39,852 bases of DNA from Candidatus Hadarchaeum sp. (lineage in GTDB: Archaea > Hadarchaeota > Hadarchaeia > Hadarchaeales > Hadarchaeaceae). Both the position numbers and the translations under genes were made by a program. Below are positions 2,432 through 37,733 of this stretch, in pieces. Under the pieces are notes generated by a model that made no database searches, was not told the DNA's origin, and worked only from the letters and a program-made list of their open reading frames with translations. Location of the stretch: contig DYTO01000007.1 in assembly GCA_020725895.1 (NCBI GenBank), positions 1 to 39,852 on the forward strand, given 5' to 3'. How positions within the stretch are numbered: position 1 is the first letter of the stretch; every line of letters begins with the position of its first letter.

Positions 2432-3544
2432 CTAGCATATGACCTGGTACTGGTGGAGGCACATGTTGCACGGGTACGGCTGCTTCTTCTCCTTGAACTG
2501 CGACCTAATCAGGCGGTACTTCTCGTTGTTCCATATCTCTTTGAGCGGCGTCTGGTTTATGTTCCCCATCACCCAGGGCGCGAACTCAACCTGCTTCTTC
2601 CCCACCTTCCCCTCGTGGAGAATGTAGTGCATCCCGATCGGGTATGCTATCCACGGGCAGAGGGTGACAGAGCCGTCCCACCTGACGTTCATCGGCCCGA
2701 ACCAAGGGAACCTGCAGACCGAGCGCCCGCTCACCTCGAGCTCCGGGAGCCTGACGAATATCCCCTTCTCCTTCGCGACGCGCCTCGTCTCCTCGAAAGC
2801 CTGCCTGACCTTCTCGCTCCCGCGCATTGACAGGATCGACTGCTCTGTCGTGAACTTGTCCCAGCTTATGACGTTCTGGAACCACACCTTCTCTATGCCG
2901 AGCCTGTGTGCGAGGTTGATCAGGTCTGGCGCGCCAGAGATGTTCATCTTCAGAAGAGTGCACGTCATCGAGACGCTTGGAACCTTCGAGCCCTTCTCCT
3001 TCTTTATCGCGAGAAGCCTCTCCAGGTTGCCGATGACCTTGTCGTACTTTGCGTGCCTCCTTATCTTCTCGAACATCTCCGGGTCTGCGCTGTCCACGGA
3101 GAAGACGATCTCGTCCACCTGAAGCTCGACTATCTTCCTCGCCATCTTCTCGTCAATGAATGTCCCGTTCGTGGAGAAGCTGACCTTCATCCCAAGCTCC
3201 TTCGCGGCCTCGACCATCTTCAGGAAGTTCGGGTTCGTTAGCGGCTCGCCGACTCCCCATAGGTAGACGTACTCGAGCTCCGGCCTCGACTGCTCGATCG
3301 CCTTCTTGAATATCTCCAGCGACATGTCGGCCATCTTGAATCCCTTGAAGCCGCGGTTGGGGCACATTATGCAGTTTAGATTGCATTTCGTCGTAATCTC
3401 GAGCTGGACGCCGCGCGGTTGAAACGGGAGGCTGGTCGGAACCGTGCGGTAAAACAGGGAGGGCGACCTGGACCAGACTAGCTCCGAAACCCTCGCCGCC
3501 AAGCTGTTGAACTTGGCACTTGATTTTTTCGATTGTTCCGACAT
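2432..3544 (-). CDS. Radical SAM/SPASM protein
   Basis: CNLNCIMC (CxxxCxxC); C-terminal Cys cluster CPWIAYP…CNMCLHQYQVIC. ATG at 3544 preferred over the track's TTG at 3547. Confidence 0.87.
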   Translation of the reverse strand: MSEQSKKSSAKFNSLAARVSELVWSRSPSLFYRTVPTSLPFQPRGVQLEITTKCNLNCIMCPNRGFKGFKMADMSLEIFKKAIEQSRPELEYVYLWGVGEPLTNPNFLKMVEAAKELGMKVSFSTNGTFIDEKMARKIVELQVDEIVFSVDSADPEMFEKIRRHAKYDKVIGNLERLLAIKKEKGSKVPSVSMTCTLLKMNISGAPDLINLAHRLGIEKVWFQNVISWDKFTTEQSILSMRGSEKVRQAFEETRRVAKEKGIFVRLPELEVSGRSVCRFPWFGPMNVRWDGSVTLCPWIAYPIGMHYILHEGKVGKKQVEFAPWVMGNINQTPLKEIWNNEKYRLIRSQFKEKKQPYPCNMCLHQYQVIC

Positions 3545-3611
3545 CAATACCCAGTTAACTTGGCGGCATTTTAATAAAACGATTGCAATCTTGGCTGCTG
3601 CCCCTATTGTT

Positions 3612-4799
3612 CTAAGCCTTTGAGATGCCGTATTTTTTTATCCTGTCGCGCGTGTCGAAGGCCCTGCAGCCGACACACATGAAAGGCACCGGCCCGTCCT
3701 CGCGCGGAATCAGCTTCCTGTCGTTGCGGAAACGCTCAGAGTTCCAGATTTCCTTCATCGGCTTCTCAAAAATGTTCCCGTAGCAGTGCTCTCGCAGGAA
3801 AGGCCTCTTGTTGGACATAAGGACCGCGCAGCACTGCACCACGTATCCGCCCATCATGATGTACGGCTCCGCCCACGCCGTGCAGTATTTTATGTGGGGC
3901 AGCGCCGGCTCGTTTATGTGGGAAAAAGCGACTTTGACGCCAAGCACCTCCGCCTTCTTCACCGTCTCGTCTATCCTCGCCTGCGGGACCTCCGGGATGT
4001 AGAGATGTGCGATCTCCCCGAACTTCAATATCCCAACGAACTCCACCTTGCTCCCGTCGCCCAAGTCACCGAATGAGTGAATCAGCTCGACGAATTTCGG
4101 CATCTCGTCCACGTTGAGCTTGTTTACCACGAACCTGAAGCACAGTGACGGGAGCGGCGACCCCATCTCCTTCTTCATCTGGCAGAAGCGCCTGATGTTG
4201 CCGACGACCTTGTCGAAATCGCAGCCCTTCTTGATCTTCTCGTACGTCTCCTTGGTGGCGCCGTCCATCGATATCCAGATGCAGTTCACTCCCAGGTCGA
4301 TGAGCTTCTTCCCTATCTCCTCGTTCACGTGCTCGAACTCGTCCACGAAGTTCACCGAGATCCTCCTCGACCTCAGGTGCTCGAGCATCCTGATGAAATC
4401 CTTGTTAAGGTAGGCCGTGCCCTCTCCTGTTATGTTTATCCACCTGAGTTTGGGGAACTGGTCCAGGATGTACCTGAACTTCTCGTAGCTCAGGTTCTCC
4501 GGATTCTCGTGCCAGTACGTGTGCTCGCAGATGAGACACTTTTTGTCGCAAATCGTCGTCGGCTCCAGCTCTATCTTGTACGGGTATCTCACGAGGCTAG
4601 GGTGGAGCCTGAAAAGCGGGTCGAGGACCGAGAATTCGCCGCCCTCGTCGGAAACGAAAAGCTTGATGAAAATGAAATCGGCTGCCGCACGAGGACCCTT
4701 CTTCCTGAGAATGTAGTAAATCGTCCTCCTGTAACCGACCATCGTTTTGAGGATGTTGTGTATCTCCCCAATCCTTATCCTCACAGATTCAAGCACCAT
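3612..4799 (-). CDS. Radical SAM/SPASM protein
   Basis: CDKKCLIC (CxxxCxxC); C-terminal VQCCAV…CVGCRAF auxiliary Cys. Confidence 0.86.
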   Translation of the reverse strand: MVLESVRIRIGEIHNILKTMVGYRRTIYYILRKKGPRAAADFIFIKLFVSDEGGEFSVLDPLFRLHPSLVRYPYKIELEPTTICDKKCLICEHTYWHENPENLSYEKFRYILDQFPKLRWINITGEGTAYLNKDFIRMLEHLRSRRISVNFVDEFEHVNEEIGKKLIDLGVNCIWISMDGATKETYEKIKKGCDFDKVVGNIRRFCQMKKEMGSPLPSLCFRFVVNKLNVDEMPKFVELIHSFGDLGDGSKVEFVGILKFGEIAHLYIPEVPQARIDETVKKAEVLGVKVAFSHINEPALPHIKYCTAWAEPYIMMGGYVVQCCAVLMSNKRPFLREHCYGNIFEKPMKEIWNSERFRNDRKLIPREDGPVPFMCVGCRAFDTRDRIKKYGISKA

Positions 4800-6841: not shown

Positions 6842-7957
6842 ATGGCGAAAAAACCCGTGATAAAAATAGGCAAGTACACGATCTCGGAGGACTCCCCATG
6901 CTTCGTCATCGTTGAAATAGGCCACAACCACCAGGGCGAGATCGAGATCGCGAAGAAGATGATCGACGCCGTGGCCGGGGCGGGGGCGCAGGCCGTGAAA
7001 TTCCAAAAGCGCTCCAACAAGGCCCTCTACACCAAGGAGATGTACAACATGCGATACGACCACGAAAACAGCTTTGGAAAGACTTACGGTGAGCACAGGG
7101 AGTATCTGGAGTTCAGTGAAAAGCAGTACAGGATTTTGAAAAAATACGCCGAAAAGAAGGGTCTGATTTTTTTCGCCACGGCCTTCGACATGCAAAGCGT
7201 CGATTTCCTGGAGAGGATCGGCGTCCCGGCATACAAGCTGGCTTCCGCACTCGTCACCGACACGCCGCTGATCGAGTACATCGCCAAGAAGGGAAAACCG
7301 ATATTCATGTCTACCGGCACTTCAACTCTTGAGGAGATAGACCGCGCCTACGACATTATAAAAAAATACAAGGTTCCTCTATGCATACTCCAATGCACGG
7401 CGGTTTACCCGATGTTCGACTATACCGAAGCCGACCTGTGCGTCATCAAGAACTACAAGCGGAGATATCCCGACGCGATAATCGGTTACTCCGGTCACGA
7501 GAGCGGGATAGTGCTGCCCGTCGTCGCTTACATCCTCGGCGCGCGCGTCGTTGAGAAGCACTTCACCCTGAACCGCGCGATGAAGGGCTCCGATCACCAC
7601 TATTCTCTCGAACCGCAGGGCCTGACAAAACTGATGAGGGACCTTGACAGGGTTTACAAGTCGCTGGGGTCGGAACTGAAGAGGGTTTACCTCTCCGAGT
7701 TCGAGGCAAAGAAAAAGATGGGCAAGAGCATCGTTGCGAAAAAGAATATCAAAAAGGGCACCGTGATAACCCCAGAACTTTTGGCTTTCAAGTCGCCGGG
7801 CACCGGCCTTCCCCCGTACCTGGCTGAGCGACTTTTGGGCAAGGTCGCCTTGAGCGACATCGCCGAAGACACTATTCTTGAGCTTAAGCACCTCAGCAAA
7901 ACCGCTGCGAAGGGATTCAAGATTAAAAAACCCATCGACTGGGGCAGCTACAAATGA
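6842..7957 (+). CDS. neuB: NeuB-family ulosonate/nonulosonate synthase with C-terminal SAF (antifreeze-like) domain (NeuB-1)
   Basis: VIVEIGHNHQGEIEIAKKMIDAVAGAGAQAVKFQKR; LQCTAVYP; IGYSGHESG; VVEKHFTLNR; C-term SIVAKKNIKKGTVITPELLAFKSPGTGLPP (SAF). Confidence 0.92.
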   Translation: MAKKPVIKIGKYTISEDSPCFVIVEIGHNHQGEIEIAKKMIDAVAGAGAQAVKFQKRSNKALYTKEMYNMRYDHENSFGKTYGEHREYLEFSEKQYRILKKYAEKKGLIFFATAFDMQSVDFLERIGVPAYKLASALVTDTPLIEYIAKKGKPIFMSTGTSTLEEIDRAYDIIKKYKVPLCILQCTAVYPMFDYTEADLCVIKNYKRRYPDAIIGYSGHESGIVLPVVAYILGARVVEKHFTLNRAMKGSDHHYSLEPQGLTKLMRDLDRVYKSLGSELKRVYLSEFEAKKKMGKSIVAKKNIKKGTVITPELLAFKSPGTGLPPYLAERLLGKVALSDIAEDTILELKHLSKTAAKGFKIKKPIDWGSYK

Positions 7958-8439
7958 AAAATCTCGGCGATGTGAAAATTGTTGCTTTAGATTTTGACGG
8001 CGTCATGACAGACAACCGCGTTTATGTCGACCAGGACGGGAGGGAGACTGTCGCGTGCTGGAGGTCAGACGGGATCGGGTTGGGCAGGCTCAAAGAGGTT
8101 GGTGTCGAAACGGTGGTGATCTCATCCGAGGTAAACCAGGTTGTTGAAAAAAGGTGCTCAAAGTTGAAGATCAACTGCGTTCGCGGCGAGAGCGACAAGC
8201 TCTCTACGTTGAAAAAAATATTGAAAGAAAAGAAACTGTCTCTGGAAGAAACCTGCTTCGTCGGGAACGACCTGCCCGACTTGGAGTGCCTAGAAAATGT
8301 CGGCTACCCGATCGCGGTGAAAAACAGCGCTAAAGAGGTGTTAAAAGTCGCCAAGTATATCACTAAGCGAGAAGGAGGAATGGGTGCCGTAAGGGAAGTG
8401 TGCGACATGATCTACGACGCCAAGAAGGTGAAAAAATGA
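7954..8439 (+). CDS. KdsC-like HAD-family phosphatase
   Basis: VKIVALDFDGVMTDNRVYVDQDGRE…RSDGIGLGRLKEVGVETVVISSE…CFVGNDLPDL; ATGA overlap with NeuB-1. Confidence 0.9.
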   Translation: MKNLGDVKIVALDFDGVMTDNRVYVDQDGRETVACWRSDGIGLGRLKEVGVETVVISSEVNQVVEKRCSKLKINCVRGESDKLSTLKKILKEKKLSLEETCFVGNDLPDLECLENVGYPIAVKNSAKEVLKVAKYITKREGGMGAVREVCDMIYDAKKVKK

Positions 8440-9251
8440 AGGGAAAAATGGAAGGGATGTTCCGCCTCGACGGTAAAGTAGCGATAGTAACCGGCGGTAT
8501 GGGATTGCTTGGAAGGGAATTCGTCAAAACCCTCAAGGACGCCGGCGCGAATGTCGCCATCTTTGACAAGCAAGTCAAAAATTATCCCAAGGATTTCGAG
8601 GAGGTTTTGCGCGAAAAGAACGTGGCGGCCTTCGAGACCGACGTTACGAATAAAAAATCGATATCTGAATCCTTGAAATCCGTGGAGAAAAAATTCGGCG
8701 CGGCCGAGGTATTGGTGAACGCCGCGGCTATCGACGTGCCCCCTAACTACGACGCGGAGGCCCTGTTGTTCGAGAACTATCCCGAAGAGCTCTGGGATAA
8801 AATAATGGAAGTAAACGTTAAGGGGATCTTTCTTTGCTCACAGGTGATCGGGACCGCCATGGCGAAGGGGAAGGGCGGCAGCATCATCAACGTTTCTTCG
8901 ATATACGGGGAAATCTCCCCCGACCAGAGAATATACGTCAAGAAAGACAGGAAAGAGAAATTCGTGAAACCGATAGCATACAGCGTCAGCAAGGGCGCGA
9001 TCCCGAGCCTGACCCGTTACCTCGCCACATACTGGGCCGCCAAGAGTATCCGCGTGAACGCGATAACGTTCGGCGGGGTTTTCAGCAATCAGGATAAAGA
9101 GTTCGTCAAGAATTATTCCTCAAAGGTCCCCCTCGGGAGGATGGCGAGGTCCGACGAGTATAACGGCGCGATACTTTTCCTCGCCTCCGACGCGTCCTCG
9201 TACATGACCGGGGCGAACCTTGTGATAGACGGCGGTTACACGGCCTGGTAA
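8436..9251 (+). CDS. Short-chain dehydrogenase/reductase (SDR)
   Basis: KVAIVTGGMGLLGREF; NVSSIYG; YSVSKGA (YxxxK); C-term YMTGANLVIDGGYTAW. ATG at 8436 gives an ATGA overlap with the upstream gene. Confidence 0.92.
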   Translation: MKGKMEGMFRLDGKVAIVTGGMGLLGREFVKTLKDAGANVAIFDKQVKNYPKDFEEVLREKNVAAFETDVTNKKSISESLKSVEKKFGAAEVLVNAAAIDVPPNYDAEALLFENYPEELWDKIMEVNVKGIFLCSQVIGTAMAKGKGGSIINVSSIYGEISPDQRIYVKKDRKEKFVKPIAYSVSKGAIPSLTRYLATYWAAKSIRVNAITFGGVFSNQDKEFVKNYSSKVPLGRMARSDEYNGAILFLASDASSYMTGANLVIDGGYTAW

Positions 9252-9344
9252 CTCGGGGGGAACAAAACGCCTAGCTCCGCAAAAGAATCCACCAAGGTTT
9301 TTTTCAGGCCTTCGGACTTTGAAGAGATAAAAAAATGCAGGTCC

Positions 9345-11210
9345 TTGACGCAGCCTGAACGGTTGAAGATAATCGCGGACATGATCAGGTGGAACGCCCT
9401 GACATCGATAATGAACGCCCGATCGGGGCACATCGGCGCGTCCTTCAGCATCGCCGACATCCTGGCAGTCCTCTACCACAGCGAGATGAAAGTCGATCCG
9501 AAAAATCCTAGGGGTTTCGGGCGGGACGTCCTCATACTTTCAAAGGGGCACGCGGCCTCGTCGCTGTACGCGACATTGGCGTCGCGCGGCTTCTTCCCGA
9601 CCGAAAAACTTCTCAAGTTCAGGAGATTGAAGGGCCTCGAAGGCCACGCTGAGATCTCGGCGCCGGGCGTCGATTCAAACACGGGCTCGCTAGCGATGGG
9701 GATTTCGAAGGGTAAGGGTTACGCGTGGAGTTACAAGGCCAGCTGGAGCAAGGCCACGGTCTTCGTGATTATGGGCGACGGGGAGCTCCAAGAGGGCCAA
9801 AACTGGGAGGCGATAATGTCCGCCAGCTTCATGAAGTTGGACAACCTCTGCCTGATAATCGACAGGAACCGCGTCCAGACGGACAAGGAGGTCAAGGAAA
9901 TCCTTGACGTTTCACCGATCGAGGCAAAATTGAAGGCCTTCGGCTGGCACGTTACGACTATCAACGGCAACGACACAAAGGAAATCCTGGAATCGTTAAA
10001 GAAATTGAAAAGGGTTTATGGAAAACCCAAGGCCATCGTGGCGAACACCCTGAAGGGCGCCGGAGTCTCCTTCATGGAACACCCACACGCTCTGAAGGCG
10101 GGCAAGGGATACTACAAGTGGCACGACAAGCTGCCGAACGAGAAGGAATACAGGCGCGTCTGGGCCGAGATTTGCGCCAGGATAAACAAAAAAACAAAGA
10201 AATGCGCGCTGAAGAAATTCTCGCTGCCGGCTTTTCCCGAAGAGATCGCCAAGAAGAAAATCGTCCGTGTGGGGGAATCGCTGCTGAAACATTATTCTGA
10301 AATACTCGTTGAAATCGGCGCAAAAAACAAGAACGTTGTCGTCCTGGACGCCGACCTTGCGGAAAGCTGCGGCCTGAGGGAGTTCGAGAACAAGTTCCCG
10401 AGAAAGTTCATAGAAGTCGGGATTGCCGAGCAGGACATGGTCTCGATGGCCGGGGGGCTAGCGCTTTCCGGTAGGATACCGATCGTGAACACATACGCAT
10501 CTTTCCTGACCTCGAGGGCGAACGAGCAGATATTCAACAACGCCTCCGAAGGTTCGAAGATAATCTACGTCGGGCACATCGCGGGGATCATCCCGGCCAA
10601 GCCGGGCAAGTCGCACCAGGGTCTGAGAGACATAACGGTGATGAAATCCATGCCGAACGTTCTGGTTTGCCAGCCGTGCAACTCTCTGGAACTGCGAAAG
10701 CTCATGAACTTTTTGGTGACGAAATCCGATATCGCGGGCTATCTGCGCTTGGAACACGCGATTCCAAAAATAGCCGTGCATTTGCCGGTGAACTATGAAG
10801 TCAAGGTTGGCCAAGGGGCGACTTTGGCGGATGGGGCAGACGCGATAATAATAGGGCATGGCCCTCTCCTGCTATCGGAGGCCTTGATCGCGAGAGAGAT
10901 CTTGAAAGAGAAAAATATAAGCGTCAAGGTTGTTAACCTCCCGTGGCTCAACTGCGTCGATGAGAAATGGCTCAGGAACACGATTGGAAAAATCAAGAAT
11001 GTTTTTTGCCTGGAGAACCACTCGGTAGCCGGCGGTATGACAGAAATAGTTGCGCGCGCGCTGCTTACTGGCGGGCCCTGCGACTTGAAACTTCAAACAA
11101 TCGGGATCGAAGGTTTCGGCAGGTCCGGCGAGGACGAGGAAATATTGAAACACTACGCGATTGATGCTTCGAGCATCGCCAAAAAAATCAAGGGGTCGAT
11201 CAAAAGATGA
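9345..11210 (+). CDS. Transketolase-family protein (both N- and C-terminal halves)
   Basis: ARSGHIGASFSIADILAVLYH; LSKGHAASSLYATLA; IMGDGELQEGQNWEA (ThDP); FIEVGIAEQDMVSMAGGLALSGRIPIVNTYASF (Pyr domain). TTG start in track; true start unclear, see findings. Confidence 0.92.
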   Translation: MTQPERLKIIADMIRWNALTSIMNARSGHIGASFSIADILAVLYHSEMKVDPKNPRGFGRDVLILSKGHAASSLYATLASRGFFPTEKLLKFRRLKGLEGHAEISAPGVDSNTGSLAMGISKGKGYAWSYKASWSKATVFVIMGDGELQEGQNWEAIMSASFMKLDNLCLIIDRNRVQTDKEVKEILDVSPIEAKLKAFGWHVTTINGNDTKEILESLKKLKRVYGKPKAIVANTLKGAGVSFMEHPHALKAGKGYYKWHDKLPNEKEYRRVWAEICARINKKTKKCALKKFSLPAFPEEIAKKKIVRVGESLLKHYSEILVEIGAKNKNVVVLDADLAESCGLREFENKFPRKFIEVGIAEQDMVSMAGGLALSGRIPIVNTYASFLTSRANEQIFNNASEGSKIIYVGHIAGIIPAKPGKSHQGLRDITVMKSMPNVLVCQPCNSLELRKLMNFLVTKSDIAGYLRLEHAIPKIAVHLPVNYEVKVGQGATLADGADAIIIGHGPLLLSEALIAREILKEKNISVKVVNLPWLNCVDEKWLRNTIGKIKNVFCLENHSVAGGMTEIVARALLTGGPCDLKLQTIGIEGFGRSGEDEEILKHYAIDASSIAKKIKGSIKR

Positions 11211-11935
11211 AAATTCTTTGCTTGATTCTCGCGCGCGGCGGGTCCAAGAGACTGCCCGGGAAAAATATCAAGGCGCTCGGCGGACAGCCACTGATTTGCC
11301 ACACTGTCAAAGCCGCAAAAGGTTCGAAACACATAAACAGGATAATCGTTTCGACCGACGACGAAGAGATAGCAAGGATCTCAAAATCTTGCGGCGCTGA
11401 AGTGCCTTTCTACCGCCCATCACCAATCTCCAAGGACGACTCGACGGAACTAGAGGCTTTTGAGCATGCGCTGAGCTGGTTGAAGGAAAAAGAAGAGTAC
11501 GTTCCGGACCTGATAGTTAAGCTATTCCCAACGACCCCTTTCAAAACGACGAAATCGATAGACAAGGCGATAAAACTAATGCTCGCAAACCCGCGCGCGG
11601 ACTCCGTCCGTTCGGTCAGGCCATGCAAGGAGCACCCATACAAGATGTGGACCATCGAGAAGAAACGCCTGAAATCCTTCGTGCCGATTGAGAACAAGCC
11701 CAAAGAGGCGCACACTCTCGCATACCAATCGTTGCCCACGGTCTACATCCAGAACGCATGCATAGATGTGACAAAACCTTCCAACGTCTGGAAGAAGAAA
11801 TCAATCACCGGCACAGAAATAGTCCCGTTCGTCATGGATGAGATAGAATCGATAGACATCAACACCCCCTTGGATCTCAAATTCGCTGAACTGGTCCTCA
11901 AAGAGGGAATCGCTTGGAAAAAGAAATCGAAGTGA
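11207..11935 (+). CDS. neuA: CMP-ulosonate cytidylyltransferase (NeuA-like)
   Basis: ILCLILARGGSKRLPGKNIKALGGQPLICHTV; IIVSTDDEEIARISKSCGAEVPFYRP; IDINTPLDLKFAE; ATGA overlap with transketolase. Confidence 0.93.
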   Translation: MKILCLILARGGSKRLPGKNIKALGGQPLICHTVKAAKGSKHINRIIVSTDDEEIARISKSCGAEVPFYRPSPISKDDSTELEAFEHALSWLKEKEEYVPDLIVKLFPTTPFKTTKSIDKAIKLMLANPRADSVRSVRPCKEHPYKMWTIEKKRLKSFVPIENKPKEAHTLAYQSLPTVYIQNACIDVTKPSNVWKKKSITGTEIVPFVMDEIESIDINTPLDLKFAELVLKEGIAWKKKSK

Positions 11936-12822
11936 ACAAGAACATAATCCGGGAAGATCTGGAAGCATACGCGAAGTACCTTAAAGTTGAAAAGAATTGC
12001 ATCCTGTGCGACAAGAAAAACCATGAAACCTGGGCGAAGTACGGCTCTTACACTGCTGTGAAGTGCAAGAACGACGACATGATCTGGATAAACCCACAGC
12101 TTTCGGAAGAGGGCCTGAACAAGTACTACGAGGACTACATCGGGATGCGCTTCAAGGATGAGATAAAGACGAAGCAAAGGAAAGTCCAATACCAGCTAGA
12201 CAAGGAATACATCGAGAACTGGATCTCTTCCGGGCGTGTCCTGGACGTCGGCTGTAGTGGTGGTTTCTTCCTGGACGCCCTGAGCGATTCTTTCGAAAAG
12301 CACGGGATAGAGATAGACTCAAAGGCGGTTGAATACGCGAATAAGACATACTCATTCGGGAAGAAGGTCAACTCCGTGCGGATTGAGGACGTGAAATATC
12401 CTGAAGGTTATTTTGACCTCGTTGTGATGAGGGGCGCAATCGAGCACCTGCCGGATCCCAAAACTGCTGTGAAAAAAGTTTCAAAAATTCTGAAAAAAGG
12501 CGGATACTTCTACATCGCCGCAACGCCGAACGCCGCGAGCTTCTGCGCCGACCTCTACCGCGAGAAATGGAACATGTTTCACCCTGTGAGGCACATCTTC
12601 TACTTCGGCGCAGATACGATTTCAAAGCTCTGCGCTCCATTCGGCCTGAAACTCGTCGGTAGGCACTACCCATACGAGGAGACGCCGTACGCGAACATAG
12701 AATCAGATCAAAAAGAGGTCCTTCGCGCCTGGGAACTGAAGATGGAAGGAAAGTTCGAAAAAATCGGGCGCAGCCCCTCCTTCTGGGGCAACATGATGAA
12801 CCTCGTGCTCAGGAAAACCTGA
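11932..12822 (+). CDS. Class I SAM-dependent methyltransferase with N-terminal CxxC (possible Zn site)
   Basis: CILCDKKNHETWAKYG; RVLDVGCSGGFFLDALS; FDLVVMRGAIEHLPDP. GTG at 11932 makes a GTGA overlap with neuA and is preferred to TTG 11914. Confidence 0.87.
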   Translation: MNKNIIREDLEAYAKYLKVEKNCILCDKKNHETWAKYGSYTAVKCKNDDMIWINPQLSEEGLNKYYEDYIGMRFKDEIKTKQRKVQYQLDKEYIENWISSGRVLDVGCSGGFFLDALSDSFEKHGIEIDSKAVEYANKTYSFGKKVNSVRIEDVKYPEGYFDLVVMRGAIEHLPDPKTAVKKVSKILKKGGYFYIAATPNAASFCADLYREKWNMFHPVRHIFYFGADTISKLCAPFGLKLVGRHYPYEETPYANIESDQKEVLRAWELKMEGKFEKIGRSPSFWGNMMNLVLRKT

Positions 12823-14259
12823 TCATCTCTTCAGGCCCAAAAAATTCAGTATGTAGTTCCCTATCCTCTCGCCGCATTTGCCGTCCTGCGGGCCGCAGTG
12901 CTCGTCGACTATCTTCTTCCTGCCATCGCTGTCAAGCTTCGGGTCGTCCAGATACGCATTTATGTGTGCGATCAGCTCGTCCGCGTTCTGCGCAATCTTC
13001 ACCCCACCTGACTTTGGTATGAACTCGTAATGAGTGTACATGAAAATCCTCGCGTTCGACTCGAGGAAATCCCTCTTCGCATACCCGTCGAACGAGATGT
13101 TGACTATCGGGATGTCCAGAGCCGCGGCATCCAAAGTGACAGACGACGCAACGTTAATCGCCACGTCGCTGCACGCCAGAAGATTCGCATAGTGAATCAT
13201 CTCCTCATCGTCCGGCACCCATATCTCTGGGCGCGCGGCCGAGACCATCGCCATCTTTCCGGACCAGAACCTCTCGCTGACGGTTTTCTTCGGTATCTCG
13301 AAGGTTATGATATTCCCGAATTCTTTCAGCTTGTCGTATCTCGCCAGGATGTCTTCGGGGTGGATTCTGACGTGGACATGCGAAGGATATTTTATCTTCC
13401 CTTCCTTGACCGCTTTGCAGATGATTTCGATTATATCCTGCTCGTCCTCGGACCCCCTGGCCGTCGCGTACGAGATGAGTTTTCTGTCCTCTGTGGCCCC
13501 GATCTTTTTGAAGAATTCTTTCTTGGGCAAAAACTTGTCCTTTGACTTCACGAAATAGTCCTGATGGGGGATGCCTGCTACCAGGATGTCCTCTGGGCGA
13601 TATCCATAGTAGTCGACGAGCTGCTTCTTGTTGAACTCGTTCCAAACTATCACTCTGTCGGACTTGTGGAGAATCCCCTTCGCAAAGTGATCCCAGTTTG
13701 CTATCATCGAGATTACGTGGACTTTTTTGCGCCTAGCGGTTTTTGCGATGCTCCACTCGTAGGGGTGCAGGAAATCCGTCGTGAAAACCAGGTCAGGTTT
13801 GTAATTTTCAAATGGTTTGTTGTAGAATTTCATCTTCCCTCTAGAGATAATTGCGTCTAGATTGTCAAGCGCCTTTATCAGATTCTTGTCCTTCCCGATT
13901 ATTTTTTTTACAATTTTTCGCGACAGGTATTTGTAGTGGCTCCTCTTCTTCAAAATTTTATCTTTTATCTCGACGGTCCCCGGGCGGTTTGCGTTGAAAA
14001 TCACTATTTCAGCGGCTTTCTTCAGTATCCTTTCAACGATGTTCGGTTTGTATATCGCCAGATTCTCGTGGATTATGTTCTCGCCCTGGGCTTCGGGAAA
14101 ATCGGAGATTATGCTCTTTCCGTCGACGAACGGCGCAAAAATCACGATTTTCAAATCTTTCTCGGATTTCAATATCCTGAACGAGTCCGACCTGAATATG
14201 TTCCGGATTCCATACCCGCCCGTTATAGTCATGAACACCGTTTTCAAATTTTTCACCAT
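12823..14259 (-). CDS. GT-B-fold glycosyl/polyol-phosphate transferase-like protein (CDP-glycerol transferase / 2-epimerase-like superfamily)
   Basis: DRVIVWNEFNKKQLVDYYGYRPEDILVAGIPHQD; HVRIHPED; CSDVAINVASSVTLDAAALDIPIVNISFDG. Confidence 0.6.
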   Translation of the reverse strand: MVKNLKTVFMTITGGYGIRNIFRSDSFRILKSEKDLKIVIFAPFVDGKSIISDFPEAQGENIIHENLAIYKPNIVERILKKAAEIVIFNANRPGTVEIKDKILKKRSHYKYLSRKIVKKIIGKDKNLIKALDNLDAIISRGKMKFYNKPFENYKPDLVFTTDFLHPYEWSIAKTARRKKVHVISMIANWDHFAKGILHKSDRVIVWNEFNKKQLVDYYGYRPEDILVAGIPHQDYFVKSKDKFLPKKEFFKKIGATEDRKLISYATARGSEDEQDIIEIICKAVKEGKIKYPSHVHVRIHPEDILARYDKLKEFGNIITFEIPKKTVSERFWSGKMAMVSAARPEIWVPDDEEMIHYANLLACSDVAINVASSVTLDAAALDIPIVNISFDGYAKRDFLESNARIFMYTHYEFIPKSGGVKIAQNADELIAHINAYLDDPKLDSDGRKKIVDEHCGPQDGKCGERIGNYILNFLGLKR

Positions 14260-17084: not shown

Positions 17085-18653
17085 TCAAATGCCCTGGAAC
17101 CTGTCCCTGTCCAATTCGCGCAGAGCCTGGCTTGCCATCAGCATGCTCTTTTTAGTGAAGATGCTGTAGGGTTGTCCGCGTTTCAACTCGTAATGCTCCC
17201 TGATCTCCTTGATGATCTTCTTCATGAACTTCAGCCTTATCAGCGCCTGGGTCGCCGAAGGAACGTGCGAAATCCCGCGCTCCTCAATGAACTTTTTGAT
17301 CTCCGCGTTTATCCCGCCGTAAAACCTGAGCTGGGCTTCCCTGACGTAGGGGTCGTTCGCCAGGATGTTGAAGTGCCGCTTTATCGTCTTCTTTGTCCCC
17401 GGTATCTCGATGACCTCGGTCGAAAAGTCGAAATATTTCTCGTGCATCGTCGAGCCCTTCAGGGGGATTATCGCCATCGCTATCGATGCGGTCGCCGTCC
17501 CGTCCTCGACGAGTCCCATAGTTTTGTCGACGGTTATCTCGACGTCGTCCAGATTGCTTTCAGGTGTTATCAGTATTGCGCTGATGAAGGGGCTGATCCC
17601 GTGTTTCTTTACGAGCCGAATCCTCTCCTCCGTCTCGCGCGCATCGTATTTCTTGTTTATCTCGTCGAGCACTTTCTGCGAAAAGGACTCAACCCCGATG
17701 TTAAGCAGCCTGAAGTTCGCACGCTTCATCCAGGAGAGAATCTCGTCGTTTAGGTCGCTGACCCTCGCGAAGCAGATGTAACCAAGACCGAATTTCCTCT
17801 TCTCGGCCTCCTGGCAGAACTTTATCAATTTCTCCTTGTTGACTGTGAAATTGTCGTCCGTGAAATAAATCGTCCGGACCCTCGGATGGGCTTTTTTGAT
17901 TCGCTCAATCAAGTCGAGCAGGTTCTTCGCCTCGATCTCCACGAGAGGCACGCCGAACTTCCCCGCCGCCGAAGCTAGCTGGTGTGTCGAGGAGCAGAAC
18001 GTGCAGCCGAACGGGCAGTAGTTGTGCGTGAATATCCTAATAGTGTGAATCTCCTGCATCCGGTTGTCGTCGAGCTGGCCCTCGTACTTCTTCACGTAAA
18101 AGTCCCAATATTTCTCATATGGGATTTTCTCCCAGTCTATGCCTTTCGTCGCCTCGAAGAATTCCTCGCGATTGAACGTTGTGGCGTCCTTCCTTACAGC
18201 GATACCGGGGATGTCCTCGAGATGCTCCTCGTTCGCAAGCATAAGCAGCGGGACCTCCCCCTCGCCAAGTATCGCTATCTTGCAAGGGCTTTTGTCGAGA
18301 ATCGTCTGGTAGTTGAACTGGGCCTCTATCCCGCCCGCCACGAGCAAGGCGTCGGGGCATGTCTTCTGCGCCAGGTACATGTTCTTGATGTCGCTGACCA
18401 GGCTGTCGTCCAGGACTGAGAACCCTATGATGTCCCAATCATTCTCATTCAGCTTCTCTTCCAGGCTCGGCCCCTCACCTGAAATCATGTGATAGTTGCT
18501 GTCGATCCACTCGGCTTGGTGGCCCTTTGCGTTCAAATATCCCACAAGCCTCAAAATCCCGAGCGGCGGAGTCAGCCACTTGACCTCGGACATCGACTTC
18601 TCGCTCATGGGGGAGATGAGCAATATCTTTTTTGGCTTTACTTTCTTTTCCAT
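17085..18653 (-). CDS. B12-binding-domain radical SAM protein
   Basis: KKILLISPMSEKS…WLTPPLGILRLVGYLNAKGHQAEWID (B12-binding-like N-term); CPFGCTFC; YFTDDNFTVNKEKLIKFCQE. Confidence 0.88.
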   Translation of the reverse strand: MEKKVKPKKILLISPMSEKSMSEVKWLTPPLGILRLVGYLNAKGHQAEWIDSNYHMISGEGPSLEEKLNENDWDIIGFSVLDDSLVSDIKNMYLAQKTCPDALLVAGGIEAQFNYQTILDKSPCKIAILGEGEVPLLMLANEEHLEDIPGIAVRKDATTFNREEFFEATKGIDWEKIPYEKYWDFYVKKYEGQLDDNRMQEIHTIRIFTHNYCPFGCTFCSSTHQLASAAGKFGVPLVEIEAKNLLDLIERIKKAHPRVRTIYFTDDNFTVNKEKLIKFCQEAEKRKFGLGYICFARVSDLNDEILSWMKRANFRLLNIGVESFSQKVLDEINKKYDARETEERIRLVKKHGISPFISAILITPESNLDDVEITVDKTMGLVEDGTATASIAMAIIPLKGSTMHEKYFDFSTEVIEIPGTKKTIKRHFNILANDPYVREAQLRFYGGINAEIKKFIEERGISHVPSATQALIRLKFMKKIIKEIREHYELKRGQPYSIFTKKSMLMASQALRELDRDRFQGI

Positions 18654-18665
18654 GAAATCCCGTAT

Positions 18666-19754
18666 TCAATCGATTTTCACGTTTTTAATTCCTTCATTCC
18701 TTTTGAGGACGTGCGCGATTGTTCTCTTTTCGTCGCCTTTCATGTCGTTTATCATGTGCCGCGGCCCAACGGGCAGGTCACTGATTATCTGGTCGAAGAC
18801 TATCCCCAGCGATTCGAGCTTGTTCAGGACGCCGAAGATCTTGTGATATTGCCTTGACGTTGTGAGGATCAGATAATATCCCTTCTCCCTGAAATCTTTC
18901 AACTTCTCGGGTGTCCCATCGAGCACCTCTATGTCCTCGCCTGTCTCGGAGGGTACAGGCACGTGCTTGATCAAAGTCCCGTCCAGGTCGCTGAATATGG
19001 CCCCCTTGTACGTCTTTTTGACGGATTTCGGGACGTGCTCCATCGGGACGGGGATTTGGTTGACCTCTTTTATCTCGGGGTATTCGCTCAGCACTCCATC
19101 CGAATCGCAAACGAGAAGCTTTTGTGAATATTTGTCAATCAGAAATTTCAAGAAAAGGTTCTCGCTGTACGAAGTCAGCAGATACCTTGAAACCACCTCG
19201 AAAACGTTCCTCCTGTCGGCATCTTTCTTTATTATCCGATCAAGGCAGGTGCTATCGGGGGTGTTCAACAAGACGATGAAGTCCAGCTTTTCAAGGATTT
19301 CCGCCCCGCCCAGAATGCAGTTCTCATAGAAAATCACTCCATTTTTCTGGGCCTTGAGCTCCACTTTCATGTCCTTCTTTCCGGTGTTGCGGTCATAGGC
19401 GTCGCTTATCACAACACCTTTGCCGGAAGCCATCTTTTCGATGTCATTGTAAATTTTTTCGAAATCCCACCAGTTGAACTGGTTGGCCGCTTCTAGGTAT
19501 GCGTGCGCGCCCACGAACCATTTCTCCTGAAGCCATCTCTTGCGCTGCTCGGAATCCAACTTGAACCTCCAGTCTCCCGAATAATGAATCGTTGGAATCG
19601 ACTGTTCACCGAGCTCCTTTGCTATCTTGTTGGCGATCGTTGTCTTGCCGGAACCGGCCCTCCCACAAATCCCCACGAGCATCGGCGCCTTCGCCGACTC
19701 CAGCCTGTTAACAATGCCTTCAGTGACCTGCATTCTTATCACCGAGGTAATCAC
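18666..19754 (-). CDS. Fusion: P-loop uridine-kinase-like domain plus C-terminal HAD-like phosphatase domain
   Basis: VGICGRAGSGKTTIANKIAKEL (Walker A); DRIIKKDADRRNVFEV; C-term GAIFSDLDGTLIKHVP…LILTTSRQYHKIFGVLNKL. ATG/alternate start may be 19733. Confidence 0.8.
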   Translation of the reverse strand: MITSVIRMQVTEGIVNRLESAKAPMLVGICGRAGSGKTTIANKIAKELGEQSIPTIHYSGDWRFKLDSEQRKRWLQEKWFVGAHAYLEAANQFNWWDFEKIYNDIEKMASGKGVVISDAYDRNTGKKDMKVELKAQKNGVIFYENCILGGAEILEKLDFIVLLNTPDSTCLDRIIKKDADRRNVFEVVSRYLLTSYSENLFLKFLIDKYSQKLLVCDSDGVLSEYPEIKEVNQIPVPMEHVPKSVKKTYKGAIFSDLDGTLIKHVPVPSETGEDIEVLDGTPEKLKDFREKGYYLILTTSRQYHKIFGVLNKLESLGIVFDQIISDLPVGPRHMINDMKGDEKRTIAHVLKRNEGIKNVKID

Positions 19755-20487
19755 GAACTTTTTTCAGCATGTCTGGAGTCCCGAACTCGAACATTTGGGA
19801 TAGCGGCAGGGCAAGGGTCTTGACTTTTGAAATATAATTTTTCATTATATCGAAAGTGTAGTCGGGCTTTCCATCGGTTTCGTACGCTTTTGTGTATGCG
19901 ATGGCCTTCAGAAGCGTTGTGTTGTGGCATATCGAAAGTCCCATGAAACCGCCGTAAGTCTCTCTTTTGAGATCCTTGTTCGGGAGAAGACCCGTCACGA
20001 CGCCTTCGTCAACAACTGCCAGCCCTTTCGGGTGGTGGTCAACAATGTAGGGCGGGTTTGGTTTTTGGCTCACCCCAAGGGCGTCGTGGTCCACGGAGAC
20101 GTATTCTTCAATCAGGTAATCGCAAAAAGTTATTATCGTGGGGGAACGCGACGACGCGTAATCCAGCGCCAGGACCAGCGATTTTCCGGGCCCTGCGAGC
20201 TCGGAAACTTTCTCCCTGCTGAAAAGCGGGTTCAATTTGGAATATTTCCCCCTTGCGTAATTCTCGAGGATGTCGGCGCCGTGCCCTGCCGCGATTATTA
20301 TCCTGTCCGAAATGTACTGAAATTTCTGTATCGTGTAGTCTATCGCGCGCATGTTCCCCAGCGGGATCAAGGCCTTGGGGATGTGGTCGGTCTCGGGCCT
20401 GAGCCTTGTGCCTGCTCCTGCAGCCAGTATCACAACGTTGAATTTCTCTCCCCGCACGCTGAAAGAAGGCGCTTTTTTAAACGTCAT
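19720..20487 (-). CDS. Sugar-phosphate nucleotidyltransferase-like protein
   Basis: FNVVILAAGAGTRLRPETDHIPKALIPLGN; coding overlap with the kinase-HAD gene. Confidence 0.87.
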   Translation of the reverse strand: MTFKKAPSFSVRGEKFNVVILAAGAGTRLRPETDHIPKALIPLGNMRAIDYTIQKFQYISDRIIIAAGHGADILENYARGKYSKLNPLFSREKVSELAGPGKSLVLALDYASSRSPTIITFCDYLIEEYVSVDHDALGVSQKPNPPYIVDHHPKGLAVVDEGVVTGLLPNKDLKRETYGGFMGLSICHNTTLLKAIAYTKAYETDGKPDYTFDIMKNYISKVKTLALPLSQMFEFGTPDMLKKVRDYLGDKNAGH

Positions 20488-24464: not shown

Positions 24465-24489
24465 TGGCGAAATGCCGGGCGGTGGGAAA

Positions 24490-25509
24490 ATGGACACCGT
24501 GAAAATTGGCAAAAAAGTTGTTGGTAGGAATAATCCGGTCTGTATAGTGGCAGAGATCGCGTCGGCCCACCAGGGGAATCCCGAGACCTGCAAGGAATTG
24601 GTGCGGGAGGTTGCTCGGGCGGGCGCTGACGCCGTGAAGTTCCAAAAATTCAGCGCCGAAGAGCTGGTCGTTTCCGGCCCCAAACAGGAACATTTCAAGA
24701 AGATAGAGCTGGCGGACAGCGAATGGCGCGAGATAATCTCGATCGCGAGAAAATCGGGCCTGGAAGTGATGGCAGACGTTTTCGACGAGAAAAGCTGCGA
24801 CCTCATGGATGAACTCGGTGTGTCGGCGTTCAAGATACACTCGACGGATCTGTCGAACCCTTACATGCTGGCGCACGTCGCTGGAAAAAAGAAGCCGGTT
24901 CTTCTGGGGGTCGGTGGCGGCAAGCCAGAGGAAATCAAAGAGGCGATTGAAATCGTGAAAAAAAACGGGTGTAAGGATATTATGCTAGTCCACGGATTTC
25001 AGGCCTACCCGACGAAACTCGAAGATACAAATTTTGGATTGATTTCTGCATTGAAAGAGAGATTCGGGTTGAATGTAGGTTACCACGATCATGTCGACGC
25101 CGAAAGCGACCTGGCCTTGTTCATGCCCTGCGTCTCGGTAGCTTATGGGGCCTCCTTGGTGGAGAAGCACGTCATACTCAGCAGAAAGGAAAAGGGGCTG
25201 GACTACCAATCGGCGCTCACGCCAGAAGAATTCAAGAGGCTGATCAAGAACATCAGAGAATTTGAAAGAGCGATTGGCCACGGGAAATTCGAATTCTCGG
25301 ATGCCGAGAAGAAGTACCGTGAAGAGGTCAGGAAAAACATCGTCGCAAGGAGAGACATCCCTGCCGGCACCGTGATAACGCTTGAGATGCTGGCTTTCAA
25401 GAGATCGAAGCCCGGGTTGTCGCCTCTTGAAGCGCCGAAAGTCGTGGGCAAAAAAACCAAAGTTAAAATTCTGAAAGATGAAGTCATTAGCCGGGAAAAA
25501 TTGACATGA
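24490..25509 (+). CDS. NeuB/SpsE-family synthase, divergent (NeuB-2)
   Basis: CIVAEIASAHQGNPETCKELVREVARAGADAVKFQKF; LVEKHVILSRK; SAF-like IVARRDIPAGTVITLEMLAFKRSKPGLSP; ATG 24490 preceded by GGTGGG. Confidence 0.88.
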   Translation: MDTVKIGKKVVGRNNPVCIVAEIASAHQGNPETCKELVREVARAGADAVKFQKFSAEELVVSGPKQEHFKKIELADSEWREIISIARKSGLEVMADVFDEKSCDLMDELGVSAFKIHSTDLSNPYMLAHVAGKKKPVLLGVGGGKPEEIKEAIEIVKKNGCKDIMLVHGFQAYPTKLEDTNFGLISALKERFGLNVGYHDHVDAESDLALFMPCVSVAYGASLVEKHVILSRKEKGLDYQSALTPEEFKRLIKNIREFERAIGHGKFEFSDAEKKYREEVRKNIVARRDIPAGTVITLEMLAFKRSKPGLSPLEAPKVVGKKTKVKILKDEVISREKLT

Positions 25510-26270
25510 AAACAATTGTTCTCATCGCTGTGCGAATGAAATCGACGAGACTGCCGAAAAAGGCCCTTGCCGAGATAGAAGGGAAGCCTTTGATAAACCA
25601 CCTCATCGAGAGGCTCAAGACTGCCAAAGTTCCGGCATCCCTGGTCCTTTGCACATCCACCCACCAAGACGACTCTGTGCTTGTTGAAATCGCGAAGAAA
25701 GCGGGCGTGAAATGGTTCGGGGGGAGCGAGGATGACGTTCTTGAGAGGTTCATCAGGGCGGCCGAGAGCGAGGGGGCAGACAATATCGTCCGCGCGACAG
25801 GGGACAACCCGCTCACCGACCCGGAGTACATCGACAAGGCGATAACCAAGCATGTGGCCGCGAAAGCCGACTACACTTTCGTCGAGGGGCTTCCAAAGGG
25901 GACTGAGTGCGAGGTGATCTCGGTCAAGGCATTGAAAAAATGCAAGAGCTCGGCCGACAACCCGGAAATGAGCGAGTACATGACTCTTTACTTCAAGAAT
26001 TCGGGGCTCTTCAAAACGGAGAAGATAACCGCGGCGCCCGAAGTCAATCGCCCGCAGTATCGGCTGACCGTGGACGCCCCCGAAGACTTGAAACTGGTGC
26101 GCGAGATCTACGGCCGCCTCTACAGGGGGGGCAGGGTCTTCCCTCTCTCCGATGTCGTGAAGTTCCTGGACGATAACCCGAAACTCGGCGAGATGAACGC
26201 AAACATAAAGCCGAAAGAAGTAAAAATGCAATTCGTCAAGGGGAAGATGAGAATCGTGGAGGGAAAATGA
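25506..26270 (+). CDS. SpsF-like cytidylyltransferase
   Basis: TIVLIAVRMKSTRLPKKALAEIEGKPLINHLIERLK; VRATGDNPLTDPEYIDKAI; ATGA overlap with NeuB-2. Confidence 0.9.
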   Translation: MKTIVLIAVRMKSTRLPKKALAEIEGKPLINHLIERLKTAKVPASLVLCTSTHQDDSVLVEIAKKAGVKWFGGSEDDVLERFIRAAESEGADNIVRATGDNPLTDPEYIDKAITKHVAAKADYTFVEGLPKGTECEVISVKALKKCKSSADNPEMSEYMTLYFKNSGLFKTEKITAAPEVNRPQYRLTVDAPEDLKLVREIYGRLYRGGRVFPLSDVVKFLDDNPKLGEMNANIKPKEVKMQFVKGKMRIVEGK

Positions 26271-27659
26271 ATGCCTAAGGTAAGCGTGATTGTCACCGCA
26301 CACAATTATGGGAAATATCTTAGGACTTGCCTGGACAGCGCTCTGAACCAGTCCTACAAGGATTTCGAGGTCATCGTCGTTGACGACGGCTCGACGGACG
26401 ACACGGCGAAGATCCTGAAAGAATACGGCGACAAGATAAGGGTCGTCAGGCTCAGCGGAGTCGGTCTGGCGAGGGCATGCAACAGCGGCGTTGCGCTCGC
26501 GAAGGGCGAATACATCGTGAGGCTGGACGCCGACGATTACTTTGACGAGAACATCCTGCTTATCGAGACGACGTTCCTTGACAACCACCCGGACGTCGAC
26601 CTTGTATACCCCGATTATTTCTTCATAAGCGAGGGCGGCGAAGTCCTCGAACACGTGAGACAGATGAAGGTCGGGGAGGAACTGCGCCTTCTGTACAGGA
26701 ACCCGCTTGCCGCAGGGGCGATGTTCAGGAAGACAAAGTTCGACGACATATGCGGATACACCGAAAAGCCTGGATACACGGAAGACTACGACTTCTGGAT
26801 AAGGTTCGCGACGAAATACAAGGTCGCCAACATAAACCTCCCCCTCATGTACTACAGGCGGCACGGCGGCAGCATGTCCGCGAACAGGCACTGGAAGACG
26901 GGGGCGAGGAGGCTGGTGAAGAAGGAATTCGTGGAGACCCGGCTTAAAAACGTCCTGAAGAAAACGAAGATCCTCGGGATAATCCCCGCTCGCGGCGAGT
27001 CCAGGATCGATGGAGGGAAGCTGGCGCTCAGGGACCTCAACGGCAAGTCTCTGATCGCCTACACCATTGAAGAGGCGCTCAAGTGCAAACTTCTGGACCG
27101 CGTGATAGTCTCAACCGAGGACAGGGAAATCGCGGACGTCGCGAAGAAATACGGCGCCGAAGTCCCGTTCTTGCGCCCGAAGGAGTTGACGGGGCCTGAG
27201 ATCCCGGTAGAGAGCGTCGTCCTGCACGCGCTGGAATTTCTCGCCAAAGAAAAATACGAGCCGGACATAATCGCGATACTCCACGTCGTCTCGCCCCTCA
27301 AGAATGAGGAGCACATCACCGAGGCAATCCATACGATGCTGATATTCAACACTGACACCGTGATAAGCGCTACCCCGGACAAGTCGTTCCACTGGAGGCC
27401 CGACACGCACGGCCTTTCGCCGCTCTTCGAGAAGAGGCTCCTGATGTACGAGAGGGAGATGCTATACAGGGAGAACGGCGCGATATATCTTGTGAAGAGG
27501 GATGTCCTGGAGAAGAAGAAAAACGTGATTGGAAAAACTGTCGCACACATCGAAATGCTTCCGGAGGAATCAATCCACATAGACTCGGAGCATGACTTTT
27601 GGCTGGCTGAACAAATCCTGAAAAGAAAACCGAAGAAGGGGGCCTCGAAACGAAGATAG
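26271..27659 (+). CDS. Fusion: family 2 glycosyltransferase plus NeuA-like cytidylyltransferase
   Basis: N-half VSVIVTAHNYGKYLRTCLDSALNQSYKDFEVIVVDDGSTDDT…RLDADDYFDE (GT2); C-half ILGIIPARGESRIDGGKLALRDLNGKSLIAYTIEEALKC…VIVSTEDREIADVAKKYGAEVPFLRP (NeuA). Confidence 0.92.
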   Translation: MPKVSVIVTAHNYGKYLRTCLDSALNQSYKDFEVIVVDDGSTDDTAKILKEYGDKIRVVRLSGVGLARACNSGVALAKGEYIVRLDADDYFDENILLIETTFLDNHPDVDLVYPDYFFISEGGEVLEHVRQMKVGEELRLLYRNPLAAGAMFRKTKFDDICGYTEKPGYTEDYDFWIRFATKYKVANINLPLMYYRRHGGSMSANRHWKTGARRLVKKEFVETRLKNVLKKTKILGIIPARGESRIDGGKLALRDLNGKSLIAYTIEEALKCKLLDRVIVSTEDREIADVAKKYGAEVPFLRPKELTGPEIPVESVVLHALEFLAKEKYEPDIIAILHVVSPLKNEEHITEAIHTMLIFNTDTVISATPDKSFHWRPDTHGLSPLFEKRLLMYEREMLYRENGAIYLVKRDVLEKKKNVIGKTVAHIEMLPEESIHIDSEHDFWLAEQILKRKPKKGASKRR

Positions 27660-27685
27660 GGAACGTCGACCTCGACAAAAAGGTC

Positions 27686-28651
27686 ATGGTCGTCGCGGAA
27701 GTCGGCGGGAACCACGGCGGGGACTTCGAACTCGCGAGGAAATACGTGAAAGTGGTTGCGAGGACTGGGGCGGACGCCGTCAAGTTCCAGATGATAAGCG
27801 CCGACAAGTTCGTGGTCGCGGACGCGCCCGCCGTCCCGCCGGTGAAAATGACGCAGAGGGAGTGGTTCAAGAGCCTTGAGTTCACGCCGGAGCAGTGGAC
27901 GCAACTCGCGGATGACGCCAGGAAAAACGGGATAATGTTCTTCGCGAGCGTCTTCGACACTGACAGCGCGGACCTTCTCGACAAGCTTTCGCCCGGTTTC
28001 AAGATTGCCTCTGGGGATTTCACGAACCTTCCCCTCATAAGGCACGTCGTCAAGAAGAGGAAGCCGATTTTCATCTCTACTGGCGGCACCAAATTGGAGG
28101 AGATAGACCGCGTTGTCAATGAAGTTCCGAAGAAATCTTTGGCCCTGATGCACTGCATAAGCAGTTACCCGTCGACGGAGTCTGAAGCCCATCTCCTTAC
28201 AATCCCATTCCTGAAGGAGAGGTACGGGGTAACCGTCGGCTACTCTGACCACACGATGGGGATACTGGCCTCCATAGCCGCCGCGTCACTGGGTGCGCGC
28301 GTTATTGAAAAACACTTCATTTTGGACAGGCGCCAGAAGATCGGCGACTCGATACTCTCCGCCGAGCCTCAGGAGATGAAGGATCTTGTAGGGTATGTCG
28401 GACGCGTTGAAAAAATGCTTAAGCTCAGAAAGGGGCCGATCGAGGCCGAGAAAAAATTCATCCCCTCGCTGAGAAGGAGCCTGGCCGCTGCAACCGACAT
28501 GAAGCGCGGCACAGTCGTCACAGCAGGCAAACTCATCCCGCTGAGGCCGGCTAGGGGGATATCGCCACTTGAAATAGACGAGATAGTAGGGATGAAAGCC
28601 AGGCGAGACATCAAGAAAGGCGAGATAATCAAGAAGAGCGACTTGAGCTAG
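27686..28651 (+). CDS. neuB: NeuB-family N-acetylneuraminate/pseudaminate synthase with SAF domain (NeuB-3)
   Basis: VVAEVGGNHGGDFELARKYVKVVARTGADAVKFQM; LMHCISSYPS; VGYSDHTMG; VIEKHFILDR; SAF-like MKRGTVVTAGKLIPLRPARGISP. True start may be upstream (27656). Confidence 0.93.
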   Translation: MVVAEVGGNHGGDFELARKYVKVVARTGADAVKFQMISADKFVVADAPAVPPVKMTQREWFKSLEFTPEQWTQLADDARKNGIMFFASVFDTDSADLLDKLSPGFKIASGDFTNLPLIRHVVKKRKPIFISTGGTKLEEIDRVVNEVPKKSLALMHCISSYPSTESEAHLLTIPFLKERYGVTVGYSDHTMGILASIAAASLGARVIEKHFILDRRQKIGDSILSAEPQEMKDLVGYVGRVEKMLKLRKGPIEAEKKFIPSLRRSLAAATDMKRGTVVTAGKLIPLRPARGISPLEIDEIVGMKARRDIKKGEIIKKSDLS

Positions 28652-37636: not shown

Positions 37637-37733
37637 TTTATCCCCAATGAATTTATCTTTTGTCGCCTTAAATTTTGCCAAACCGCCAAACACTAAACTT
37701 TTCAAATGGCCCGTTTAATCAAGTGGGATTGGA

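Follow-up and report, generated by a model that had tools for sequence, protein, structure and literature searches.

A conserved nonulosonate gene cassette of archaea and bacteria with a transketolase that has lost its phosphate site: a candidate route to a seven-carbon ulosaric acid

Sialic acid-like sugars are usually diversified by substituents on a fixed nine-carbon frame. In the 2-keto-3-deoxy-D-glycero-D-galacto-nononic acid (Kdn) route of Bacteroides thetaiotaomicron, Kdn-9-phosphate synthase (BT1714), Kdn-9-phosphate phosphatase and cytidine monophosphate (CMP)-Kdn synthetase act in series; both Bacteroides and Prymnesium use a phosphorylated Kdn route (PMC6200933). Here we analyze a 39,852 nucleotide stretch (hereinafter the window), the entire contig DYTO01000007.1 of Candidatus Hadarchaeum sp. 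(C3 in our numbering; genome of 1.12 Mb, 90% complete), in which a six-gene cassette includes, in the same series, a NeuB-family synthase (NeuB1), a KdsC/Kdn-9-phosphate phosphatase-like protein of the haloacid dehalogenase (HAD) family and a CMP-synthetase (NeuA1). The Kdn route, however, has no counterpart of the other genes found in this cassette or its relatives, which encode a short-chain dehydrogenase/reductase (SDR), a transketolase and an aldehyde dehydrogenase (ALDH). The legionaminic and pseudaminic acid pathways share a NeuB-family synthase and a PseF-like cytidylyltransferase with the cassette, but its constant gene set lacks their dehydratase and aminotransferase genes, and neither pathway is known to include transketolase, ALDH or KdsC-type HAD.

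The additional genes follow a logic shared with the conversion of 5-ketogluconate to tartaric acid by gluconate 5-dehydrogenase, transketolase and a semialdehyde dehydrogenase, where the penultimate hydroxyl is oxidized, a two-carbon unit is removed by transketolase and the resulting aldehyde is oxidized. Unlike the cassette, that route, which has been proposed or engineered, has a six-carbon aldonic acid as its substrate and lies outside surface-sugar pathways. In particular, transketolase followed by succinate semialdehyde dehydrogenase has been proposed as a tartaric acid route (PMC7970118), and the R358I/H461S/R520Q variant of Escherichia coli TktA shows raised activity on 5-keto-D-gluconate, with tartaric semialdehyde made in Gluconobacter (PMC12016104). 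The cassette transketolase is altered at the same three positions; by analogy with the engineered enzyme, this suggests that its donor is a keto sugar acid lacking a phosphate. We suggest, with confidence slightly short of even, that the cassette represents a natural, previously undescribed route of archaea and bacteria to a CMP-activated seven-carbon ulosaric acid, which a dedicated transketolase for unphosphorylated substrates would derive by trimming a nonulosonic acid. No description of such a route was found among open-access papers on transketolase with ulosonates, and papers on ulosaric acid mostly concern plant pectin or are off-topic.

The cassette transketolase contains all three transketolase domains and, like E. 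coli TktA and human TKT, retains the thiamine diphosphate (ThDP)-binding and catalytic residues, with H26, H66, H100, D155, H261, E411 and H473 (TktA numbering throughout) kept in all cassette sequences that cover them. In contrast, in all 12 cassette transketolases aligned with TktA, the phosphate ligands R358, H461 and R520 are replaced (by L/V/S/I, I/L/Y and H/I/S, respectively), as is the acceptor-contacting D469 (by P); R358 lies in a poorly aligned linker, where the TR motif of the control transketolases served to locate the position. H461, D469 and R520 are kept in 10 of the 11 controls. The window gene begins with neither ATG nor GTG. Its frame is open back to 9252 and homology with relatives extends back to about 9315, but the only start is the TTG at 9345, where two relatives also have TTG and another has ATG.

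Transketolases of this type (hereinafter P-type) make up 14 of the 95 classified, and 12 of these 14 have NeuB on the same stretch, compared to none of the other 81 (Fisher p 1.7e-13). Of the two without linked NeuB, one is that of genome G061 and the other is divided between two contigs, with NeuB on the contig that carries its other half. The 19 P-type transketolases found later show the same residues throughout, whereas a canonical transketolase from the same search has no NeuB. His461 is lost and Asp469 is replaced by Pro in all 33 genomes with the P-type enzyme, and Arg358 and Arg520 are missing from every sequence in which they were checked. The P-type sequences form one monophyletic clade (support 0.998) on a long stem, separate from canonical transketolases. 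The original prediction held that, were this gene the only transketolase of its genome, it would be a housekeeping enzyme. It is indeed the sole copy, as would be expected of a housekeeping gene placed beside glycan genes by chance, but among 21 relatives of the same family, 13 have no transketolase match (5 have a split transketolase and 3 the same fused form, at 61-65% identity), and the bacterial carriers possess separate canonical transketolase genes in addition to the P-type. The transketolase is therefore part of the ulosonate cluster rather than of central metabolism; with the lost phosphate site and the near-perfect linkage to NeuB also taken into account, a housekeeping role is barely credible and is rejected.

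The AlphaFold model of the window transketolase (mean pLDDT 82; loop 415-428 below 50) packs as a monomer like 1-deoxy-D-xylulose-5-phosphate synthase, DXS (TM 0.75 vs 0.47 for human TKT). DXS-like pyruvate chemistry was ruled out given the sequence scores (425 bits as transketolase vs 185) and the retention of the C1-hydroxyl ligands H100 and H473; the packing is probably an artefact of single-chain modelling. Separately, split transketolases that have lost H461, D469 and R520 are encoded beside an SDR, with no NeuB, in a planctomycete (L103, 9204-11788) and a Selenomonadaceae member (L115, 7596-11671), and possibly belong to other non-phosphate transketolase routes.

The 33 genomes with a P-type transketolase belong to the archaeal phylum of the window, one other archaeon, Methylobacter, Chromatiales, Anaerolineae and Deltaproteobacteria. 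The window genome is itself confirmed as archaeal by ribosomal protein S8e, a family detected among the controls in archaea only. A scan of genome contigs recovered the same gene set in a deltaproteobacterium, Anaerolineae, Syntrophorhabdus, a gammaproteobacterium, Methylobacter, Chromatiales and Thiohalobacter. At the 30 loci that are not cut right at the transketolase gene, a hand tally, in which several gene states are undecided at contig ends, gave linked NeuA at 27, NeuB at 26, SDR and ALDH at 25 each, and HAD at 21. In genomes G007, G011 and G015, the transketolase is accompanied by SDR, NeuB and ALDH and, where the contig permits, also by HAD or NeuA. The usual order in bacteria is NeuB-HAD-SDR-ALDH-NeuA-TKT, with HAD and SDR mostly adjacent after NeuB. 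This clustering is not accidental, and the window operon is best explained as a member of a widely transferred cassette; searches of phage and plasmid proteins yielded only distant transketolases (best 39% identity) and SDRs (best 48%). The distinct ulosonate route proposed in the original prediction is supported, as is the conserved synteny by which it was to be checked, with gene order and content recurring in archaea and bacteria. At two loci, the transketolase gene is followed by one for an enolase-superfamily protein resembling sugar-acid dehydratases (L037, 1-2079, and L036, 1-321; closest PDB match 2oo6/3go2/3sn0) and, in L037 only, by an ApbA-like reductase gene, the shorter L036 contig ending there; these genes would also suit an acidic intermediate.

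The front end of the cassette appears to produce a phosphorylated nine-carbon acid. The HAD encoded next to NeuB1 scores above the cut-off of the KdsC/YrbI family (TIGR01670, 119.7 bits vs 106.95) and below that of the Kdn-9-phosphate phosphatase equivalog (NF058599, 94.9 vs 180). With a KdsC-type phosphatase in this position, NeuB1 likely makes a nonulosonate 9-phosphate such as Kdn-9-phosphate, in agreement with the phosphorylated intermediate originally predicted. NeuB1 itself is below the cut-offs of the N-acetylneuraminate synthase (TIGR03569, 295.7 vs 399.65) and PseI (231.9 vs 340.25) equivalogs. Most cassette NeuBs, including NeuB1, share an insertion, YxxENSFGxTYGEHREYLEF, which is somewhat varied in the Methylobacter group and absent from NeuB2 and NeuB3 of the window and from Neisseria meningitidis NeuB. 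All cassette NeuBs also lack Arg314 of the N. meningitidis enzyme (structure 4ipi is a mutant at this position), with Ser in its place in NeuB1; this residue, which we take to hold the N-acetyl group, is kept in NeuB2 and NeuB3. The missing arginine is only suggestive of the use of mannose 6-phosphate by the synthase.

The SDR is most similar to gluconate 5-dehydrogenase and GolD/DthD subfamily models, albeit below the gluconate 5-dehydrogenase cut-off (PRK08213, 181.6 vs 279). These enzymes oxidize the penultimate hydroxyl to give a -CO-CH2OH end. The catalytic Ser, Tyr and Lys are retained, the cofactor may be NAD, given the Asp that ends beta2, and identity to the counterparts in G007, G011 and G015 is 65-69%. 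The ALDH genes, present in the cassettes of most relatives and missing from that of the window, encode proteins whose closest models, for archaeal and bacterial sequences alike, are alpha-ketoglutaric semialdehyde and 2,5-dioxovalerate dehydrogenases, which act on omega-aldehydes of 2-keto acids; the alpha-ketoglutaric semialdehyde dehydrogenase equivalog (NF042993) is the top-scoring model, with scores of 556.6 and 414.5 below its cut-off of 770. The catalytic Cys and Glu are retained in the 9 ALDHs checked.

What the sequences show is the gene content, its broad conservation and a transketolase that has lost its phosphate ligands around intact catalytic residues; the substrates, the order of the steps and the product we infer as follows. 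NeuB1 would condense phosphoenolpyruvate (PEP) and a hexose 6-phosphate, for which mannose 6-phosphate is the best candidate, into a nonulosonate 9-phosphate (Kdn-9-phosphate), and the HAD would remove the phosphate to yield free Kdn or a close relative, that is, a nine-carbon acid with the free C7-C9 tail that the SDR and transketolase steps require. The SDR would then oxidize the C8 hydroxyl to give 8-keto-Kdn, whose -CHOH-CO-CH2OH tail is a transketolase donor group, and the transketolase would cut between C7 and C8, with C8 and C9 leaving as a glycolaldehyde unit on ThDP and a C7 aldehyde remaining. In most carriers, ALDH would oxidize this aldehyde to 3-deoxy-hept-2-ulosaric acid, and NeuA, possibly earlier in the sequence, would add CMP for transfer onto a surface glycan. 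The order of genes supports this order of reactions, without proving it. If derived from Kdn, the residue would be L-arabino configured at C4-C6 (Fischer projection), in contrast to the D-lyxo configuration of the plant sugar 3-deoxy-D-lyxo-hept-2-ulosaric acid (Dha), and hence would not be Dha. That the cassette first builds a nonulosonic acid and then shortens it through these ordered steps is, in our judgment, an evenly balanced proposition.

The points that weigh against this proposition start with the scores, given that NeuB, SDR, ALDH and NeuA all fall below curated cut-offs. The resemblance of the insertion in the cassette NeuBs to one in human NANS is a lead rather than a test. Linked SDR and HAD are missing in three genomes of the Anaerolineae class (Chloroflexota) and in G061, where the 35 kb contig encodes the transketolase, a TylF-like methyltransferase, a NeuA-methyltransferase fusion and ALDH, and no NeuB or SDR was found. 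In the window genome, ALDH is represented by no more than a weak and partial match (47 bits), and with no ALDH in the cassette either, there is less certainty about its end product than about those of the relatives: the pathway may end with the aldehyde, or the aldehyde may be converted by other means. Four Chloroflexota loci likewise have no linked ALDH, which could therefore be auxiliary and clear the glycolaldehyde freed by chain shortening, the product being the C7 aldehyde or a form capped by other enzymes, such as the methyltransferases frequently encoded near the cassette. Such an assignment is unlikely, considering that ALDH is present at the large majority of the tallied loci and that its closest models take 2-keto acid semialdehydes, not glycolaldehyde.

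Two other readings place the transketolase elsewhere in the pathway. According to the original prediction, the transketolase and the SDR could precede NeuB and build or remodel its aldose acceptor, an arrangement compatible with the shared operon, with the ability of transketolase to release an aldose and with the requirement of NeuB for one; in the aminoshikimate route, imino-erythrose 4-phosphate is supplied by a transketolase. However, the HAD implies a phosphorylated acceptor whereas three phosphate ligands of the transketolase are lost, ALDH would have no role, and HAD and SDR usually follow NeuB side by side. A transketolase without a phosphate site, encoded along with a ketone-forming SDR and ALDH after the phosphatase, is more readily assigned to a later stage, with free ulosonic acid as the substrate, and we consider acceptor building improbable. 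Equally improbable, in our estimate, is the addition of a two-carbon unit by the transketolase to an aldehyde or ketone of an ulosonate or a nucleoside diphosphate sugar, resulting in a longer or branched sugar. Transketolases are reversible, D469P hints at an acceptor that lacks the 2R-hydroxyl usually present, and ThDP enzymes are known to make branched sugars, but ALDH would remove an aldehyde acceptor, and the constant set contains no gene for making one.

If the chain-shortening route is correct, charged surface sugars would be made in a new manner, through the loss of two carbons and the gain of a second carboxylate, transketolase would have a dedicated biosynthetic role beyond central metabolism, and the engineered tartaric semialdehyde enzyme would have a natural counterpart. 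The glycans of the cassette carriers, a well-delimited group of bacteria and archaea, merit analysis for seven-carbon ulosaric acids.

The original prediction of six same-strand genes between 6842 and 12822 is confirmed (Table 1). The NeuB/HAD, HAD/SDR and TKT/NeuA junctions are ATGA overlaps, and the NeuA and methyltransferase genes overlap by 22 bases.

Table 1. Genes of the cassette and the adjacent convergent gene, with predicted functions
Feature	Coordinates	Strand	Evidence
NeuB1, predicted ulosonate-phosphate synthase of the cassette (NeuB and SAF domains)	6842..7957	+	PF03102 251 bits, PF08666
KdsC-type HAD phosphatase	7954..8439	+	TIGR01670
SDR, proposed oxidation of C8 (penultimate) hydroxyl	8436..9251	+	best NCBIfam PRK08213
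P-type transketolase (D469P, H461I, R520H, R358L)	9345..11210	+	TTG start; site alignment, clade
NeuA1, predicted CMP-ulosonate synthetase (PseF-like)	11207..11935	+	PF02348; TIGR03584
S-adenosylmethionine (SAM)-dependent methyltransferase, probable decorating step	11914..12822	+	PF13489, PF08241
GT-B-fold protein, candidate glycosyltransferase for the product	12823..14259	- (convergent)	PF04464, weak

NeuA1 is 65-66% identical to its counterparts in G007 and G061 and scores below the PseF equivalog cut-off (141.9 bits vs 205.7). The methyltransferase encoded by the last gene is 57% identical to the one fused to NeuA in G061 (L039, 13398-15002), and methyltransferases are common neighbors of the cassette; in view of the fusion, methylation of the product by this enzyme, possibly as a cap, is plausible. 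The convergent GT-B-fold gene has relatives beside the cassettes at L038 (50% identity) and L045, and weakly similar ones at L046 and L039; the best Foldseek matches of the protein are UDP-GlcNAc 2-epimerases and GT-B enzymes, and it may transfer the product.

The rest of the contig is a glycan locus encoding glycosyltransferases, a flippase-like protein, an aminotransferase and the two additional NeuB proteins. The latter belong to a second nonulosonate set (24472-28651), which consists of NeuB2, NeuA2, a GT2-cytidylyltransferase fusion and NeuB3. Also scattered across the locus are five genes for radical SAM proteins (2432-3547, 3612-4799, 17085-18653, 28629-29720 and 36605-37705), one of which also carries a B12-binding domain. 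A fusion of kinase-like (PRK) and HAD-like domains is encoded next to a nucleotidyltransferase (18666-20487), and these proteins may activate another sugar phosphate. Finally, a Fic-domain protein (34030-35010) is encoded between the genes for an aminotransferase and a phosphomannomutase.

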